From assembly GCA_016788825.1 (NCBI GenBank), contig JAEUSD010000005.1:1-57731 (forward strand): a stretch of 57,731 nucleotides of DNA. The letters run 5' to 3'. Position 1 is the first letter of the stretch. Every line of letters starts with the position of its first letter. Below the pieces are notes generated by a model. The model was given only the letters and a program-made list of their open reading frames with translations. It did not search any database and had not been told where the DNA came from. Position numbers and translations under genes: made by a program. Source of the stretch: Candidatus Doudnabacteria bacterium (GTDB lineage Bacteria; Patescibacteriota; Dojkabacteria; J137; JAEUSD01). Below, one piece after another: positions 8,279 to 28,276 of this stretch.

Positions 8279-8293
8279 TTTGAATGTTTTTGG

Positions 8294-8342
8294 GCGGGCC
8301 CCGGGGAGCTGCGACGCAGCTTTCCCTCGGGGCCCGCTTTTT
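8294..8342 (+). terminator. Rho-independent terminator of groESL
   Basis: A G+C-rich stem pairs gcgggccccg (8294-8303) with cggggcccgc (8328-8337) and encloses a second small hairpin (gagctgcgacgcagct). Five T residues follow. It ends the groESL unit and separates it from the next gene. Confidence 0.9.
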
Positions 8343-8388
8343 CGTACTATCTCTCGCAAACTACAGCGCTAGCCGCTATACTGAATCT

Positions 8389-8740: not shown

Positions 8741-11326
8741 ATGCGGATACATGTGGGAAAAGAAAAATTAGCTACTTGGGACAAGTTGACCCTCATGGTT
8801 GACTGGCAAGATTTCACCCACTACGAAGGAAATCTGACTAGCCAGATGCAACTGGAACGCTCCATGGGCTTATTTCTGAGGGGGCTAGCTATGGCGTTGG
8901 TGGCTTTCTTCTTTATTCTGGTGGTTCTGGGTGGTAATTGGGGACGGCTAAACCTATTTAGCCCTTCTACTGCAGTGGAGTTAATGCCTTGGTTGGGGAT
9001 AGCGGTTGGAATGTATAGCTTGTTTTTGGGGCGTGATCGCAATAGGTTTTCTTTTAATTCTGAGCCCAAGAGGTTACCTGATGTATTGTCCGCAGCTCAA
9101 AGTACGAAGGGGTCTGAGTATCTGGTGGAGATCGATGATTTGCTAGATATCCGAATGTTGCAATTATTTGATCATCTTTATCATCATCGGGGGGATACAT
9201 TTATGGAGGAGTTGGTGCGGTATTTGCTTAAGCCTGAAGTGTGTGGTCAGTTGTGGGAGCGGCTGGGAGTTGACGTGCGTACTCAAACGGAGAGGATTGT
9301 GACTTTGGTCAACTCCCAGCCGCTCAAGTTTGATGACAACTACACGTGGCTATTTCCTGCGCTTGTAGAGCAGGCAATGAATATTGAAGCTGAACGAGTA
9401 GATCACCGCGCTTTGTTTTTTGCCTTATTCATGGATCATTACACTCAGTTGATGTTGGATTTGAACGTGCAGGCTGCTGAGTTGCAAGCTTTGCGCGTGT
9501 GGGTGCGTAACCAACAGCGTAAGGTGAATTATTACAAGAAGTGGGAGTTAATGGCGGTGCTGAAACCAAAGGGGGTGGTGAATAGGTCCTACACTTCAAG
9601 GTATGCTGCCACTTTGGAAGAGTATGGGGAGGATTTGACAAGAAAGGCTGCGATGGGTGATTTCACAATTACAATTGGGCGTGAACAGGTTATGGTGGAT
9701 GTGTTCAAGGTGTTGCAAAAGGATCAGAACGCGGCGTGTATTTTGATCGGAGATCCTGGTGTGGGCAAGACTCAATTTTTGAAGCATATGGCGGTTAGGA
9801 TGGTGGTTGAAGATGTCCCGAGTGTTTTGCAGGATAAACGGCTGGTCTTGTTTAATTTCAATAAAGCCTTTACTGAGAATCAAACTTTGGAACAATTTAA
9901 GATAACTTTGGAAAATCTGATCACTGAGGTGGCAAAGGCAAGAAATGTGGTGATGGTGCTCGATGATATCGATCAATTGTTTAATGTGCGTGCCGATCTG
10001 CAGGCGGAGATTATTAACTTGTTGGTAAGTGGGGTGGGTAAGTACAATTTGAAAATGATCGCAACTGCGAGCTCGGATGGGTACCATCGGTTCATTAAGC
10101 CGATCCGTCCGTTGTCTGCTTTGTTCCAGGCGGTTACGATCGCTGAGCCAGAACCATTGATCTCTTTACAGATACTTATCGATGAGGCAGCTGCGCGCGA
10201 AGCGCGCAGCGGTGTCAAAGTACAGGTCGACGCTTTGAGGCAGATTGTATCGCTTGCTCCGCAGTACGCTTATGAGCGAGTGATGCCTGATAAGGCGATT
10301 GATTTGCTGGAAGAGGGGATATTGGAAGCAAAGGACAGGGGATTGCGTTTCTTGACTGCAGATGTGGTGAGCAGGGTTGTTTCACGCAAGGTTGGGGTAA
10401 GTGTGGGGGACATTACGAAGTCTGAGTCAGAAAAGCTTGTGAAACTTGAAGAGAATATGCACAAGAGAGTGGTGGGGCAAAATGTCGCGATCTCTGCTAT
10501 CGCTTCGGCTTTGCGCCGCTCTCGAGCTGGGTTGTCTTCTGGGAAGCGGCCAATCTCCTCTTTCCTTTTCTTTGGTCCGACGGGAGTGGGGAAGACGGAG
10601 GTGGCCAAGACTTTGGCTCAGACCTATTATGGGGATGAGAAAATGATGATTCGGATTGATATGTCCGAGTATCATGAAGAGCAGAATTTGCAGAGGTTGA
10701 TTGGTTACACTGAAGGTGCAAAATTTATCAATGGTTTCTTGACTCAAGCTGTGCGTGCTCGTCCATTTTCTTTGGTGTTGCTGGATGAGATTGAGAAAGC
10801 AAATCCTAAGGTTTTGGATTTGTTTCTGCAGGTGCTTGATGAGGGGCATTTGACTGATGGGGCGGGACAGAAGGTTGATTTTACAAATACGATTATCATT
10901 GCAACTTCGAATGCTGGGTCGCGAGAGATTGCGGAATTGATAGGGGAGGGGATGAAATATGATGCTGTGTATGAGCGGGTATTGCCGAACTTGCGTCAGG
11001 TATTTCGAGTAGAGTTCCTAAACAGGTTCGATAAGATTATAATGTTTAAACCTTTGCTTCCTGGGGAGGTGGCGGAGATTGCAGTGCGGGAGTTAGCTAA
11101 GTTAGGAGATAATTTGCTGGGTAAGGGAATTGCAATGGTGTATGGTCGCCAACTGCTGGAGGATCTTGTGAGGTTGGGCTATGACCCAGTCTATGGGGCT
11201 AGGCAAGTGAAGCGAGTGATTCAGGAGAAGGTTGAAGATGCGGTGGCTGAAAAAATCGTGCGGGGTGAGTTGCTGAGTGGAAAGACAATTAAGTTTAATT
11301 CTGTCCAAAACTATGAAGTTACCTAG
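8741..11326 (+). CDS. Membrane-anchored double-AAA+ Clp ATPase
   Basis: The 861-residue protein begins with two membrane helices (about 43-65 and 80-97) and a short Clp-N-like helical region. AAA-1 follows, with Walker A GDPGVGKTQ near 338 and Walker B VMVLDDID near 404. AAA-2 has Walker A FGPTGVGKTEVAK near 611, Walker B LVLLDEIEKANP near 678, sensor TIIIATSNAGS and a C-terminal D2-small domain (YDPVYGARQVKRVI). The linker between the AAA modules is short, so the long ClpB coiled-coil M-domain is absent. I also see no IGF/IGL loop for docking on ClpP. It is therefore probably a membrane-bound unfoldase or remodeller. It overlaps the next gene by 14 nt and heads the pilin-like cluster, which suggests it acts on that machine. 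An 18-bp inverted repeat lies inside at 9257-9325. Confidence 0.85.
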   Translation: MRIHVGKEKLATWDKLTLMVDWQDFTHYEGNLTSQMQLERSMGLFLRGLAMALVAFFFILVVLGGNWGRLNLFSPSTAVELMPWLGIAVGMYSLFLGRDRNRFSFNSEPKRLPDVLSAAQSTKGSEYLVEIDDLLDIRMLQLFDHLYHHRGDTFMEELVRYLLKPEVCGQLWERLGVDVRTQTERIVTLVNSQPLKFDDNYTWLFPALVEQAMNIEAERVDHRALFFALFMDHYTQLMLDLNVQAAELQALRVWVRNQQRKVNYYKKWELMAVLKPKGVVNRSYTSRYAATLEEYGEDLTRKAAMGDFTITIGREQVMVDVFKVLQKDQNAACILIGDPGVGKTQFLKHMAVRMVVEDVPSVLQDKRLVLFNFNKAFTENQTLEQFKITLENLITEVAKARNVVMVLDDIDQLFNVRADLQAEIINLLVSGVGKYNLKMIATASSDGYHRFIKPIRPLSALFQAVTIAEPEPLISLQILIDEAAAREARSGVKVQVDALRQIVSLAPQYAYERVMPDKAIDLLEEGILEAKDRGLRFLTADVVSRVVSRKVGVSVGDITKSESEKLVKLEENMHKRVVGQNVAISAIASALRRSRAGLSSGKRPISSFLFFGPTGVGKTEVAKTLAQTYYGDEKMMIRIDMSEYHEEQNLQRLIGYTEGAKFINGFLTQAVRARPFSLVLLDEIEKANPKVLDLFLQVLDEGHLTDGAGQKVDFTNTIIIATSNAGSREIAELIGEGMKYDAVYERVLPNLRQVFRVEFLNRFDKIIMFKPLLPGEVAEIAVRELAKLGDNLLGKGIAMVYGRQLLEDLVRLGYDPVYGARQVKRVIQEKVEDAVAEKIVRGELLSGKTIKFNSVQNYEVT
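9257..9325. repeat. Perfect 18-bp inverted repeat inside the Clp gene
   Basis: The arm at 9257-9274 (gagcggctgggagttgac) is exactly complementary to 9308-9325, with a 33-nt loop. Both arms lie in the reading frame. No T-run follows it. Confidence 0.9.
10190..10210. repeat. Perfect 9-bp GC hairpin inside the Clp gene
   Basis: gctgcgcgc (10190-10198), loop gaa, gcgcgcagc (10202-10210). It is another in-frame perfect hairpin with a GAA loop. Confidence 0.8.
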
Positions 11327-22756: not shown

Positions 22757-23215
22757 ATGCAATATTTGTTTCAAAACAAAGCGGTAACGGTTCACTATAC
22801 GATTGACGATAAGTTGGAAGTGGGAATGAAGTTGTTTGGCTGGGAAGTGAAATCGCTCAAACATCGTCGATTTAACCTCACAAATGCTTATATTGAGTCT
22901 TCTGTTGAGGGGGAGCTATGGCTAAAGAACGCCAATATTTCGATCTGGCCAGGTGCTTTGGGTCTAGAGGCAAACCAGACTTTACGCCCGCGCAAGCTGT
23001 TAGCACATCGCAAAGAAGCTGCTAGAATAGGGGGTGCAGCAAAACGTCCAGGCTACACTTTGGTTCCATTGAGTATGTACGTAAATGATAAAGGGCTGGT
23101 TAAACTAGAGATTGCTTTGGTAAGAGGTAAGAAGAAATACCAAAAGAAAGAGGCAATTAAACGCAAAGATCTTCGAAGGCAATTAGAGCAAGAGATGAAA
23201 TCTCTCCGCTATTAA
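22757..23215 (+). CDS. smpB: SsrA-binding protein SmpB
   Basis: The 152-residue protein matches SmpB throughout. Signatures are HYTIDDKLEVGMKLFGWEVK (family form: YEAGIVLTGTEVKSL), NLTNAYIESSVEGELWLKNA and ISIWPGALGLEANQTLRPRK. The C-terminal tail is KKYQKKEAIKRKDLRRQLEQ. SmpB binds tmRNA and rescues stalled ribosomes in trans-translation. It begins within 24 nt of the preceding stop but has its own promoter-like element. I do not find a recognisable tmRNA gene in the window. Confidence 0.95.
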   Translation: MQYLFQNKAVTVHYTIDDKLEVGMKLFGWEVKSLKHRRFNLTNAYIESSVEGELWLKNANISIWPGALGLEANQTLRPRKLLAHRKEAARIGGAAKRPGYTLVPLSMYVNDKGLVKLEIALVRGKKKYQKKEAIKRKDLRRQLEQEMKSLRY

Positions 23216-23232
23216 TGCTATAATAAGTATAT

Positions 23233-23799
23233 ATGAATAATCAAACTGCCAATTCCAACCCAGTTCCTGCCAATCTTGCGGCGCTGCTACAAAGCAGTGG
23301 TTTGCCATTGCCTAATGGAACTGATGAGAACGGAAATCCTTTCTGGTCAATAAATGGACAAACGATAAACTGGGCGCAGATGCAGCAACATCTATGGCTG
23401 CGCCAGCAACAAATGTCCCAATCTGCGCCCAAGTCTGGTGGGGTTGAGGCTATACCGCAGATGCCTACAATGGCTACCCCAGATACCATGCCAGACGTGA
23501 AAATGGAGAATAAGGTTGAGGTTGCTGGGGAAAAGGCGCCTGAAAAAGCAAACAACACTCAACCAGCAACCTCAAATGTGGCTTCTGGCCAACAAACTGC
23601 TCAAGGTGCCAAACCTGCGAAGGCGAAGAAGCCTTCATATCTAGGGGATGGACCTCAGCTTACAACTGTCGATACCTCTGATCCAGTATCGATGCTGAGC
23701 TATGTACAAGCGAATGAGAAGCAGCCCCCAACTTCGAGCAAACGATTTATTGCGGTGATGTTGAATCGGATTTTATCCTCGTTATCCTTGGGTAACTAA
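23233..23799 (+). CDS. Unknown Gln/Pro-rich low-complexity protein
   Basis: This 188-residue protein is not recognised. Residues 1-60 contain an aromatic, Asn/Gln-rich segment (NPFWSINGQTINWAQMQQHL). Residues 60-145 look disordered and are rich in Ala, Pro, Gln and Lys. The C-terminus (SKRFIAVMLNRILSSLSLGN) looks like a short amphipathic helix. TATAAT lies 8 nt before the ATG. The last codons and the stop overlap the 5' strand of the structured RNA candidate at 23788, so the 3' end may be constrained by that RNA. Confidence 0.6.
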   Translation: MNNQTANSNPVPANLAALLQSSGLPLPNGTDENGNPFWSINGQTINWAQMQQHLWLRQQQMSQSAPKSGGVEAIPQMPTMATPDTMPDVKMENKVEVAGEKAPEKANNTQPATSNVASGQQTAQGAKPAKAKKPSYLGDGPQLTTVDTSDPVSMLSYVQANEKQPPTSSKRFIAVMLNRILSSLSLGN

Positions 23800-24019
23800 G
23801 CCCCGAGGAGCTGCTTCTGGATCGATAAGACGCCTTCCTTCAAAGCGAATCTCAGTGAAGGGCACTTATGAAACCTATCCGAATGGAGCGTAAAAGATTT
23901 CTGGCTTCGCCAAAATCTAGCGAAATGAGCATCAAGGTTTCAAAGTGGCCGAGCTTGTGAGCGTGGGGGAGGGTATTTATCTTTCGGTGGGCTACACCAG
24001 CTAACAGCCGATTACCCAA
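23788..24019 (+). ncRNA. Highly structured putative non-coding RNA (about 232 nt)
   Basis: There is no reading frame between 23800 and 24036, but the sequence folds strongly by eye. A closing stem pairs TTGGGTAA (23788-23795) with TTACCCAA (24012-24019). A long internal arm pairs GGGCACTT (23860-23867) with AAGTGGCC (23943-23950, one mismatch) and GAAACCT (23870-23876) with AGGTTTC (23935-23941). Inside it AGATTT/AAATCT (23895-23900, 23913-23918) and TGGC/GCCA form a hairpin. GGTG/CACC (23986-23989, 23995-23998) forms another hairpin, and GGCT/AGCC (23990-23993, 24006-24009) could pair instead or as a pseudoknot. Signatures of RNase P RNA, SRP RNA and a tmRNA tRNA-like end are absent. Its class is not known to me; a raiA-motif-like RNA is one candidate to test by covariance search. 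Confidence 0.65.
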
Positions 24020-24021
24020 CA

Positions 24022-24030
24022 TGCTAAACT
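24022..24030 (+). promoter_or_regulatory. Extended -10 box of the VirD4-like gene
   Basis: TGC TAAACT (24022-24030) lies 6 nt before the GTG start at 24037, directly after the closing stem of the RNA candidate. No clear -35 is present, as is common with TGn extended -10 promoters. Confidence 0.35.
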
Positions 24031-24036
24031 ACTAAC

Positions 24037-26481
24037 GTGACAAACTTAGGGAGACTTCCAGCCATACAATTTGATTTCCGAATTCTGATTTGGATAGGTG
24101 TTGGAGCAGCTTTACTTGCTGTTCTGGGGGTGTTGGGCTATTGGTTAGTTAAATATATTCTCAAAGAAGTGAAAGAAACTACTGCAGAAATGAAGGCTTT
24201 GCGTGTCACTTGTTTCGAAGTTAAGGTCCCAGAAGATAACGAGACAGAGATAAAGGCCGCTGACCAAATGTTTTCCGGATTATTGGGTATTGGGGAAAAA
24301 CTGGAGGGTATGCAAAAGTATGTCGGGGCGAGGACTTTCGTAAGTTTTGAGATTGTGGCTTTTAAGGACATGATCAAATTCTATGTGGTGTGTCCGAATC
24401 GGATTGCTACTCTAGTGGATCGCCAAATAAATGGTGCATATCCGACAGCCCAGATAGATATTGTGAAGGAGTATAACCTGTTTCCGGACGATGCTCAGGT
24501 AGCGCATACGGCTTTGAAACTGGATAAGGATTCGATGATCCCGGTGCGTACGTATGAGGAGTTGGCGACAGATACACTGTCCACTTTGACCGATGCTCTG
24601 AGCAAGTTGGCAGAGGGTGAATCGGCTGCTTTCCAGTTGGTGATTTCTCCGGCAGGGTCTGATTGGCGAAATAAAGCTAAGAAGTATGTTGAAGACATGC
24701 GAAAACCTGCAGAGGAAGGCAAAACAAAACCAAAAAAGATTGATGAAGACACTTTATCCTCAATCGACCGCAAGGCCGAAAAGAGCGGATTTTACGCAGA
24801 TATTCGTTTGCTTGCCGTTTCTCCAAGTATGAGTGCCGCAAAAGAGCACTTGACCAACATGCTGAGCGCATTTGACCAGTACACCAAAGAGGGAGGAAAC
24901 CGGTTTGCTAAGAGTTCACCGAAGACTTTTGTGCGTGATTTCATTTATCGTATCCCACGAGAGACCATGACTCTAAATACTTCTGAATTGGCAACGGTGT
25001 TTCACTTCCCGAATAGGAATATCAAGACACCGCACATTCAGTGGTTACTGGCCAAAGACGCTCCAGCGGCAGATTTTGTGACAAATACTTATCAGCCTGG
25101 GTATATGTGGCTGGGTCAGAATAGGTATCGTGGTCAGGCGAAAGATATTTTTATCAAGCCAGAAGATCGTGTGCGTCATATGTACGTTATTGGACAAACA
25201 GGATCTGGTAAGACTAAATTTATTGCGGGTCAAGCTATCCGCGATATCAAGGCGGGGAGGGGTGTGTGCTTTATTGACCCGCATGGAAGTGATACCGAAT
25301 TGATTTTGGAGCAAGTACCTCCTGAGCGCGTGGAAGATGTGATCTACTTTAACCCCGGGGATACAGAGCGCCCAGTGGGTCTAAACATGTTGGAGTTTAT
25401 TACACCCGAACAAAAGACTTTCGTGATTAACGAGATGTTGAACATCTTCGATAAGCTGTATGACTTGCGGCAAACTGGGGGACCGATCTTCGAACAGTAC
25501 ATGCGAAATTCGATTCTTTTGTTGATGGAGGATGTGGAATCTGGGAATACGTTGATGGAAATTTCTAGGGTACTTGCAGATGAAGGGTATCGTAAATACA
25601 AGCTGTCAAAAGCAACAAATATTGAGGTTGTGCAGTTCTGGACAAAGCAGGCGGAAAAGGCTGGGGGAGACGCGGCGTTGCAAAACGTGGTGCCATATAT
25701 CACTTCGAAGTTAACTTCGTTTGTGTCCAACGATATCATGCGTCCAATTATTGCGCAGCAGAAATCGACAATTGACTTCCGCTGGGCGATGGATAATCAA
25801 AAGATTGTGTTGATTAATTTATCCAAAGGTCGCATTGGGGACTTGAACGCCTACCTGCTGGGTATGGTTATTGTGGGTAAGATTTTGGCAGCTACGCTGA
25901 GTAGAGAAGACATTCGCGATGAAAAAGATCGTGTGCCGTTCTACCTGTACATTGACGAGTTCCAGAACTTCTTGACGGATAGTATTGTGACTATTCTGTC
26001 CGAGGCTCGTAAATATGGGCTTTCGCTGAATATTGCTCACCAGTTTTTGGGGCAGCTGAATCGTAAAGGAGGGGACACGATGATCAAAGATGCTATCTTT
26101 GGTAACGTAGGTACAAAAGTGGTAATGCGTGTGGGTATTGAGGATGCTCAGGTATTTGAAAAGGATTTTGCGCCATTGTTCTCGGCTTCGGATATTACAA
26201 AGCAGCCAAACCAGCATGCATACATCAAGCTTCTTGTGGATGGTAAATATCCCCCACCGTTCTCGTTGACGACAACCTACAATTTGTCTCCGTTTGCTCA
26301 AATGGGAACACCAAACAAAGAGATCGCGCAGATGATCAAGCAGATCTCTAGGTTGCGTTATGGGCGCGATCGTGAGGTTGTGGAGGCGGAGATTAAGAGT
26401 CGCACGAACTTCTTTGTGGAAGTTAAGGAAGAGAAGAAAGGTGGTTTGGGTGGTCTGTTTGGCGGCGCTTCACCGTTTTAA
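24037..26481 (+). CDS. VirD4/TraG-like type IV secretion ATPase
   Basis: The 814-residue protein (GTG start) has one N-terminal membrane helix (about 10-45) and a 330-residue middle region. A RecA-like motor follows, with Walker A VIGQTGSGKTKFIAG near 384-393, then DPHGSDTELILEQVPPERV and VIYFNPGDTERPVGLNMLE. Walker B with its acidic residue is FYLYIDEFQNF near 635, followed by ARKYGLSLNIAHQFLGQL. This matches the coupling protein/TraM-recognition class that feeds DNA or protein substrates into type IV secretion channels. It is the only obvious secretion motor here; no VirB4 or VirB6 is visible. It lies at the end of the chain that contains six pilin-like genes. Its stop overlaps the convergent zincin gene by 4 nt. 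Confidence 0.85.
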   Translation: MTNLGRLPAIQFDFRILIWIGVGAALLAVLGVLGYWLVKYILKEVKETTAEMKALRVTCFEVKVPEDNETEIKAADQMFSGLLGIGEKLEGMQKYVGARTFVSFEIVAFKDMIKFYVVCPNRIATLVDRQINGAYPTAQIDIVKEYNLFPDDAQVAHTALKLDKDSMIPVRTYEELATDTLSTLTDALSKLAEGESAAFQLVISPAGSDWRNKAKKYVEDMRKPAEEGKTKPKKIDEDTLSSIDRKAEKSGFYADIRLLAVSPSMSAAKEHLTNMLSAFDQYTKEGGNRFAKSSPKTFVRDFIYRIPRETMTLNTSELATVFHFPNRNIKTPHIQWLLAKDAPAADFVTNTYQPGYMWLGQNRYRGQAKDIFIKPEDRVRHMYVIGQTGSGKTKFIAGQAIRDIKAGRGVCFIDPHGSDTELILEQVPPERVEDVIYFNPGDTERPVGLNMLEFITPEQKTFVINEMLNIFDKLYDLRQTGGPIFEQYMRNSILLLMEDVESGNTLMEISRVLADEGYRKYKLSKATNIEVVQFWTKQAEKAGGDAALQNVVPYITSKLTSFVSNDIMRPIIAQQKSTIDFRWAMDNQKIVLINLSKGRIGDLNAYLLGMVIVGKILAATLSREDIRDEKDRVPFYLYIDEFQNFLTDSIVTILSEARKYGLSLNIAHQFLGQLNRKGGDTMIKDAIFGNVGTKVVMRVGIEDAQVFEKDFAPLFSASDITKQPNQHAYIKLLVDGKYPPPFSLTTTYNLSPFAQMGTPNKEIAQMIKQISRLRYGRDREVVEAEIKSRTNFFVEVKEEKKGGLGGLFGGASPF

Positions 26482-27415: not shown

Positions 27416-28276
27416 TTAAAGTTCCACAATCTGGTTATTCCCGCTTGCTTTGTAAGGCTTCTCTAGTAGGGTGAGGTATTTGTTTGTGGTCACGCGACTG
27501 CGGTGGCCCACCACGTCAGCGATGAGGTCGATCGGGACTCCGGCGGATAGCTGGGCCACGATGAACGTATTGCGCAGGTCATTTACGCAGGCATTTTTGA
27601 TGCCACATTTCTGCATAGCGCGATCTATTGAGCTGCGGATATTTCGGATAATAATTGCTTTGCCTTCACGTGTAGGGAAGAGAGGGGTTTTGGGGCCAAA
27701 TCTCTCAGGCAAAGTATCCATATATTCTTTCAATTCTGAAGCCAATTTCGTGTTGATAGGAACATGGCGTTCTGGGTTCGTGGAGTATTTAGAAATGAAT
27801 ATGCTTGGTTTGTCACCCCATTTCACATCTTCGATTTGTAGTCTAGACAGCTCACCGATGCGAATTCCGGTCTGCAACATTAGTTCAATCATTGTATACA
27901 ATCTTTTGTTGTTATTTGTTATCTGAAGCAAGGCGAGGTACTCCATTTGGGACAATACCCGTGGCTGTTTGGGGATAAATCTCGGGTGCTCGATCAGCTC
28001 TGCTGGGTTGTGAGTCACCTTTCCAAGCTCCATCAAGAACTTGTAAAACATTCTGAAGCTATTTAGCTTGCGCGACAAAGTTTTTGGGGTAAACCCAAAA
28101 TCTGTAGTCAACTTGTTTATGACCTTTTGAAGCTGATCTTTGTCGAGATCATGAACTGCAATCTGAGAATAGGCGATCAATTGATCAAGGTCCTTTGTAT
28201 ATGCAATTATGGTCGAGTCTGAACGCTTTGCTTGTCTTAGGTATGCAGCAAATTCAATGATTAATTCTTTACTCAT
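27416..28276 (-). CDS. Tyrosine recombinase, Xer-like
   Basis: The 286-residue protein has a SAM-like core-binding N-terminal half and a catalytic half. Arg-I is in TGIRIGELSRL (R139), a lysine is in ISKYSTNPE (K163), and box II NDLRNTF carries R235. GHRSRVTTNKYLTL supplies H258 and the nucleophile Y267. The first position of the usual HxxR is Asn (N232), a non-standard but sometimes tolerated change. Length fits XerC/XerD, which resolve chromosome dimers at dif. The stop lies 6 nt from the 3' end of tRNA-Ile(UAU), an arrangement also seen with integrases. No other mobile-element genes are near, so Xer is the simpler reading. Confidence 0.85.
   Translation of the reverse strand: MSKELIIEFAAYLRQAKRSDSTIIAYTKDLDQLIAYSQIAVHDLDKDQLQKVINKLTTDFGFTPKTLSRKLNSFRMFYKFLMELGKVTHNPAELIEHPRFIPKQPRVLSQMEYLALLQITNNNKRLYTMIELMLQTGIRIGELSRLQIEDVKWGDKPSIFISKYSTNPERHVPINTKLASELKEYMDTLPERFGPKTPLFPTREGKAIIIRNIRSSIDRAMQKCGIKNACVNDLRNTFIVAQLSAGVPIDLIADVVGHRSRVTTNKYLTLLEKPYKASGNNQIVEL

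Follow-up and report, generated by a model that had tools for sequence, protein, structure and literature searches.

The window, the whole 57,731-nt stretch of a Candidatus Doudnabacteria contig analyzed here, carries a structured segment in the gap between a low-complexity ORF and the gene for a coupling ATPase. The genes and structural features of this locus, in window positions, are the following:

23233..23799 (+): low-complexity ORF of 188 aa upstream of the rod, without a Pfam match
Between 23799 (end of the upstream ORF) and 24037 (start of the ATPase ORF): the rod-bearing gap
24037..26481 (+): TraG/TraD-type coupling ATPase of 814 aa (Pfam PF12696, 6e-08; PF10412, 2.6e-06)
23788..23795 (+): 5' arm, TTGGGTAA, of the closing stem proposed in the initial annotation; overlaps the end of the upstream ORF and lies outside the shared element
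24012..24019 (+): 3' arm, TTACCCAA, of the same proposed stem; outside the shared element
23824..23981 (+): rod-shaped imperfect hairpin, the architecture common to three copies (from the minimum free energy fold of the window, the folds of the copies and covariation)
23824..23863 (+): outer arm on the 5' side of the rod; sequence varies by copy, pairing largely kept (two-sided changes in helices 1-3)
23947..23981 (+): outer arm on the 3' side; likewise variable in sequence by copy with pairing largely kept (two-sided changes in helices 1-3)
23864..23946 (+): apical core, the most conserved part, covered over its full length by matches of the covariance model R1 (below)
23870..23875 (+): 5' arm of the core-closing stem, GAAACC, pairing with 23936-23941 in three copies
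23936..23941 (+): 3' arm of the core-closing stem, GGTTTC, pairing with 23870-23875 in three copies
23881..23891 (+): 5' strand of a non-canonical internal loop, GAATGGAGCGT, conserved in three copies
23919..23928 (+): opposite (3') strand of the same loop, AGCGAAATGA, conserved in three copies
23895..23918 (+): apical hairpin AGATTT...AAATCT, paired in three copies, with a loop that varies in length and sequence

The initial annotation had located the gap and its borders correctly. On the upstream side, smpB lies at 22757-23215, 0.6 kb from the structured stretch; a tyrosine recombinase-like ORF of 286 aa (27416-28276, minus strand), ~3.4 kb from the rod, is probably the host Xer enzyme.

The structured stretch has a minimum free energy of -78.2 kcal/mol (z = -2.5), equalled by 2 of 200 shuffled sequences, and when segments are ranked by how far their energy falls below that of shuffles, the one holding the rod comes 11th among 632 tiled 164-nt segments of the same contig. 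The fold is stable, not extreme, and because the rod ranks only 11th, energy alone would not carry the claim; so modest a value for the window copy is also compatible with chance folding of an ordinary intergenic spacer. What makes the fold real is the comparison with other copies. The strongest fold of the contig in the tiled scan is a perfect 18-bp inverted repeat (9257-9274/9308-9325) inside the gene for a ClpA/B-like ATPase (8741-11326).

Rfam gives no match in 23788-24019 at the gathering score, and permissive settings return chance matches only; in the loci of relatives there is none at E 0.05. The scan suggested in the initial annotation, with raiA, OLE, 6S and tmRNA among the models, thus matched no family, and the reported lack of RNase P, SRP or tmRNA signatures is borne out by the absence of any such match at or near the stretch. 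A tmRNA beside smpB was considered and rejected, since ARAGORN detects none in the window and RF00023 matches neither the stretch nor, above its cut-off, anything else in the genome. It should be noted that smpB is present, yet no tmRNA exceeds the Rfam cut-off in this 94%-complete assembly; some of the weak RF00023 matches fall on tRNA genes in the window.

Comparing the stretch with its own genome by blastn revealed a second copy on contig C18 (81% identity over 100 nt), and a covariance model (R1) built from the cores of the window and C18 copies located a third on contig C33 at 61.9 bits, compared with 111.8 bits for the window copy and 110.7 bits for copy 2. According to a search with a longer covariance model of all three copies (R2), the 1.09-Mb genome contains exactly three; the exact pattern has 3 matches there versus 0 for a reversed-pattern control. 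The shared rod is ~144-158 nt long. Its neighbors differ from copy to copy: a Peptidase_C39-like/Big_5 protein and an AI-2E permease flank copy 2, RNase J and a PPDK_N protein flank copy 3. The folding strand is the purine-rich one (plus in the window), on which z is -2.5, -4.8 and -3.8 for the window copy, copy 2 and copy 3, versus -1.1, -4.1 and -2.0 on the reverse strand; fold energies in this genome favor the plus strand. No target duplication or shared termini are recognized among the three copies; the rod termini pair, yet their sequence differs between copies.

All three rods occupy a gap between co-oriented genes, just past a stop codon and sense to both neighbors, an arrangement with a chance of one in eight if placement is random. 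This would suit an mRNA element placed between cistrons or within the upstream gene's 3' UTR, where it would protect or process the transcript, comparable to the effect of ERIC on the stability of Yersinia mRNAs (PMC2229807). In copy 3, the rod is followed by a strong promoter-like site (TTGACA-17-CATAAT), which would place that rod at the end of the upstream unit. However, sense placement in three copies is weak evidence and could be a by-product, and the rod has no U-tract: no plus-strand terminator-like site (GC stem and U-tract) is found in 23600-24200, whereas a strong canonical terminator-like hairpin with a T-tract directly follows groEL elsewhere in the window (8284-8345), from which it follows that the organism uses ordinary intrinsic terminators. 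Scans for promoters and terminators uncovered no site shared by the three copies and, in particular, no common upstream promoter.

In the alignment of the three copies, 93.5% of cells are paired, compared with 87.4% after shuffling, and 10 of 48 rod pairs have changed on both sides while still pairing, compared with 4.4 expected from shuffles; these values were reached by none of 500 shuffles, but as there are only three sequences, and the same alignment supplied the structure, the test is strong rather than unbiased. In control versions in which the rod structure was slid, paired cells drop to 22-45%. The covariation named as support in the initial annotation is found, above all 500 shuffles, in the long arm as represented by the three copies of this genome. 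The closed multi-helix fold described there is kept in part: the long two-part arm (~23824-23981) is common to the copies, but the 5' and 3' side hairpins are not, and the 8-bp closing stem, although present in the sequence (23788-23795 with 24012-24019, 216 nt apart), is without a counterpart in copies 2 and 3. The same is true of the stretch over the upstream stop codon.

The rod core is a tandem G.A internal loop in which GAAUGNARCGU faces AGCGNAAUGA, flanked by the GAAACC/GGUUUC stem on one side and the apical stem AGAUUU/AAAUCU on the other. Aligned antiparallel, the two strands give G.A, A.G, A-U, U-A, G.A, N.N and A.G, followed in two of the three copies by G-C and C-G; to judge from the sequence, these would be sheared-type purine pairs alternating with short Watson-Crick steps. 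The letters of the core motif turn up in the literature only in primers and unrelated text.

Relatives yielded no comparable element: blastn over 380 phylum genomes produced only short chance matches (18-26 nt), the core sequence pattern is without a match in the other 379 of these 380, R1 gave nothing convincing in 86 class genomes and R2 nothing convincing in 18 relatives. In phage and plasmid collections, blastn of the window element found no match, and three further patterns found nothing in viral contigs. When the core pattern was run over public genomes, a locus in a Geobacter MAG (L016) was obtained in which a hairpin carries the core amid quite different, perfectly pairing stems; as L016 was chosen with a pattern from the window element, its agreement in the core is selected and not an independent discovery, but the surrounding pairing and the variable positions shared by its repeats are not products of that selection. 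Other pattern matches (L015, L017-L020, L022-L024, L029, L031-L034 and L041-L043) were dismissed as chance or coding because the flanking pairing is absent or, where R1 or R3 (a model described below) was run, there is no match. One of these loci, on a viral contig, carries a type II hammerhead ribozyme (L020:1154-1221, minus strand, 73 bits).

The L016 element is a 148-nt repeat present in 9 of 13 genomes of the family, with up to 18 copies per genome and with most of the better matches running end to end. Forty-two aligned copies form a rod with 54 pairs, in which 95.8% of cells are paired and 38 pairs show two-sided changes; the terminal stem is free in sequence and keeps its complementarity, and the loop columns are mostly 80-100% conserved. 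The two internal-loop strands of the window element (23881..23891 and 23919..23928) are also conserved, among other stems, in these repeats and in viral contigs, and the variable positions (the N of GNA) are the same in the Geobacter repeats as in the window family. G.U pairs occupy 175 cells in the Geobacter repeats and A.C pairs 9, as would be expected if a single strand folds on its own, whether RNA or single-stranded DNA, but not if the duplex alone matters. The repeat loci (L051-L055, L057, L060 and L066-L098, in genomes G431, G572, G575 and G579-G582) hold intergenic, covarying palindromes of ~150-200 nt without an Rfam match, and the 5' end of the repeat, CGGCAG-TTGGAAG-CTGCCG, can fold separately into a small hairpin.

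Among Geobacter copies with both flanking genes, 13 are sense, 16 antisense and 12 mixed, so there is no orientation bias, a fact that a read-through mRNA element fails to explain; we consider an mRNA role as the primary explanation rather unlikely. Flanks outside the rod are not conserved in Geobacter, and hence no common promoter is visible there. This bears on the possibility of a small RNA specific to the lineage, acting in trans and represented by three paralogues: conservation of a strand-specific fold and of an unpaired-looking core in three copies would be expected of such an RNA, but the want of an Rfam match, the missing upstream promoter common to the copies, the unconserved Geobacter flanks and the free divergence of the outer parts make it improbable. 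The initial annotation was right that the element is structured, unassigned and covarying; its reading as a discrete non-coding RNA tied to this gene neighborhood is unsupported, given three dispersed copies beside unrelated genes, their absence from the relatives searched, the unconserved closing stem, and related Geobacter repeats that occur in either orientation with no conserved flank for a promoter. The fold is real, and a dispersed hairpin repeat is quite probably a better description of the element than a discrete RNA gene.

The two families recognize each other through covariance models. R2, trained on the window genome only, has 13 matches in 127.6 kb around Geobacter copies, all of them on elements and all on the right strand. 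In the opposite direction, a model from Geobacter copies only (R3) was run against 83.8 kb of the window genome and, with E allowed up to 10, matches just copy 2 on C18 (31.9 bits, E 4e-05) and the window copy (19.8 bits, E 0.04), these E-values being rough; it misses copy 3. On viral contigs, R3 also recognizes L021 (40.5 bits), L030 and L035, and it matches a rod on a plasmid of Aureibacter tunicatorum at 33 bits; it matches none of the chance pattern loci searched with it, nor L036 despite the core pattern there. Cross-recognition by the Geobacter-trained model, together with two more copies carrying compensatory changes, refutes chance folding, to which we assign next to no probability. 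Three of the loci matched by R3 are described as follows:

L030:3866-3931 (-): rod of the same class on a viral contig, between apparent structural genes and sense to its neighbors
L035:9237-9302 (+): rod of the same class on a viral contig, between apparent structural genes and sense to its neighbors
L102, record 164821-179064: Aureibacter tunicatorum plasmid pAT2, an ~8-kb unit twice in tandem

The contigs of L030 and L035 are related to each other, and the sense placement of both phage copies is a further point in favor of an mRNA element. In pAT2, each ~8-kb unit comprises an HTH regulator, a CHC2 zinc-finger protein, the rod hairpin and two tyrosine recombinases, with the rod between the CHC2 protein and the recombinases. 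We take this CHC2/tyrosine recombinase context as a lead on the mobilizer and nothing further; the small hypothetical protein annotated over the pAT2 rod is probably not a gene.

Several known systems resemble the element in part. Reviewed MITE-like palindromic repeats, i.e., ERIC/IRU, NEMIS/Correia, RUP and YPAL, share with it a length of 100-200 bp, several intergenic copies, no gene of their own and a long stem-loop with A-G and other mispairs (PMC2229807). Three dispersed intergenic copies are found here and up to 18 in the Geobacter relatives, and one long stem-loop is formed by the window-genome copies and the Geobacter repeats alike. Unlike MITE-like repeats, our element has no recognized terminal 5'-TA or target duplication, the sequences of its terminal stems are entirely different from copy to copy, and its core loop is conserved across phyla, with no sequence match known. 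Multicopy intergenic nucleotide sequences, some of them palindromic, have been described in Geobacter, with neither mechanism nor fold given in the accessible portions of those reports (PMC2996986, PMC2700814); the Geobacter-relative repeats described above are multicopy intergenic palindromes of the same general sort.

REPIN and REP elements, associated with RAYT transposases (PMC3116915, PMC8266576), are also dispersed, intergenic, non-autonomous hairpins that fold on one DNA strand, and a REPIN proper, mobilized by a RAYT (Y1) transposase, would account for a long hairpin of inverted arms with these properties. However, no Y1 transposase (PF01797) is detected at E 0.001 in the genome (assembly ~94% complete), and a RAYT-like HUH motif is absent from every locus examined. 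Nor is a REP unit (a 5' GTAG-type tetranucleotide with inverted doublets) recognized when the three copies are read by eye, and the element is a much longer single rod with several tandem G.A modules. With both transposase and REP unit lacking, membership of the REPIN/RAYT family fails, and we regard it as very improbable. The attC sites of integrons are recombinogenic hairpins recognized by structure on one strand, with stems that vary in sequence. Variable stems and one-strand folding are shared by our element, but its conserved features lie mid-rod and not at terminal boxes, and no cassette array is apparent; by-eye reading of the rod noticed no R or L boxes (GTTRRRY/RYYYAAC). The element works like MITE/ERIC or REPIN elements, but REPIN membership fails, and MITE termini and target duplication went unrecognized in the three copies.

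Taken as a whole, the structured stretch is likely one copy of a dispersed, non-autonomous palindromic repeat of ~160 nt; that it is a dispersed hairpin repeat folding on one strand we hold with good confidence. The purine-rich strand (plus here) folds as a rod in which fixed tandem G.A-type internal loops alternate with variable Watson-Crick stems, and this fold would be kept as the form in which the element is recognized and moved. The recognized form would most likely be single-stranded DNA exposed at replication, a step to which, taken by itself, we give somewhat short of even chances, and the mover would be an enzyme provided in trans, either a recombinase or a transposase, as happens with REPINs or MITEs. 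A copy inside a transcript, as may be the case for all three, would become a stable 3'-UTR or intercistronic mRNA hairpin, as for ERIC. A mobile hairpin recognized on one DNA strand would explain jointly the dispersal, the restriction to few lineages and the strand-specific folding, as well as the indifference to gene orientation in Geobacter, the stems that are free and still pair, and the fixed non-canonical core. Local copying between palindrome arms could also create paired changes, but would repair the G.A positions rather than preserve them. Against the mobile-repeat reading count the failure to find a Y1 enzyme or a target duplication, the small size of the three-copy family and its all-sense placement, which fits an mRNA role too.

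More tentatively, the rods may represent a class of mobile hairpins extending across Patescibacteria-type bacteria, Desulfobacterota, Bacteroidota plasmids and phages, in which the stems are free and the tandem G.A and GNA/GNA loops would be a common code for a single-strand DNA-binding recombinase; this is conceivable rather than likely, and convergence on a stable G.A motif is a possible source of the shared core. Dispersed palindromes are usually described lineage by lineage and from primary sequence. In the present case, repeats from distant phyla with almost no stem sequence in common are tied together by a non-canonical structural core; this would offer a way to many more such elements and makes the protein that reads the fold a testable question. 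A further caution follows: what looks like an unassigned, covarying structured RNA in a small genome can be a mobile DNA hairpin.
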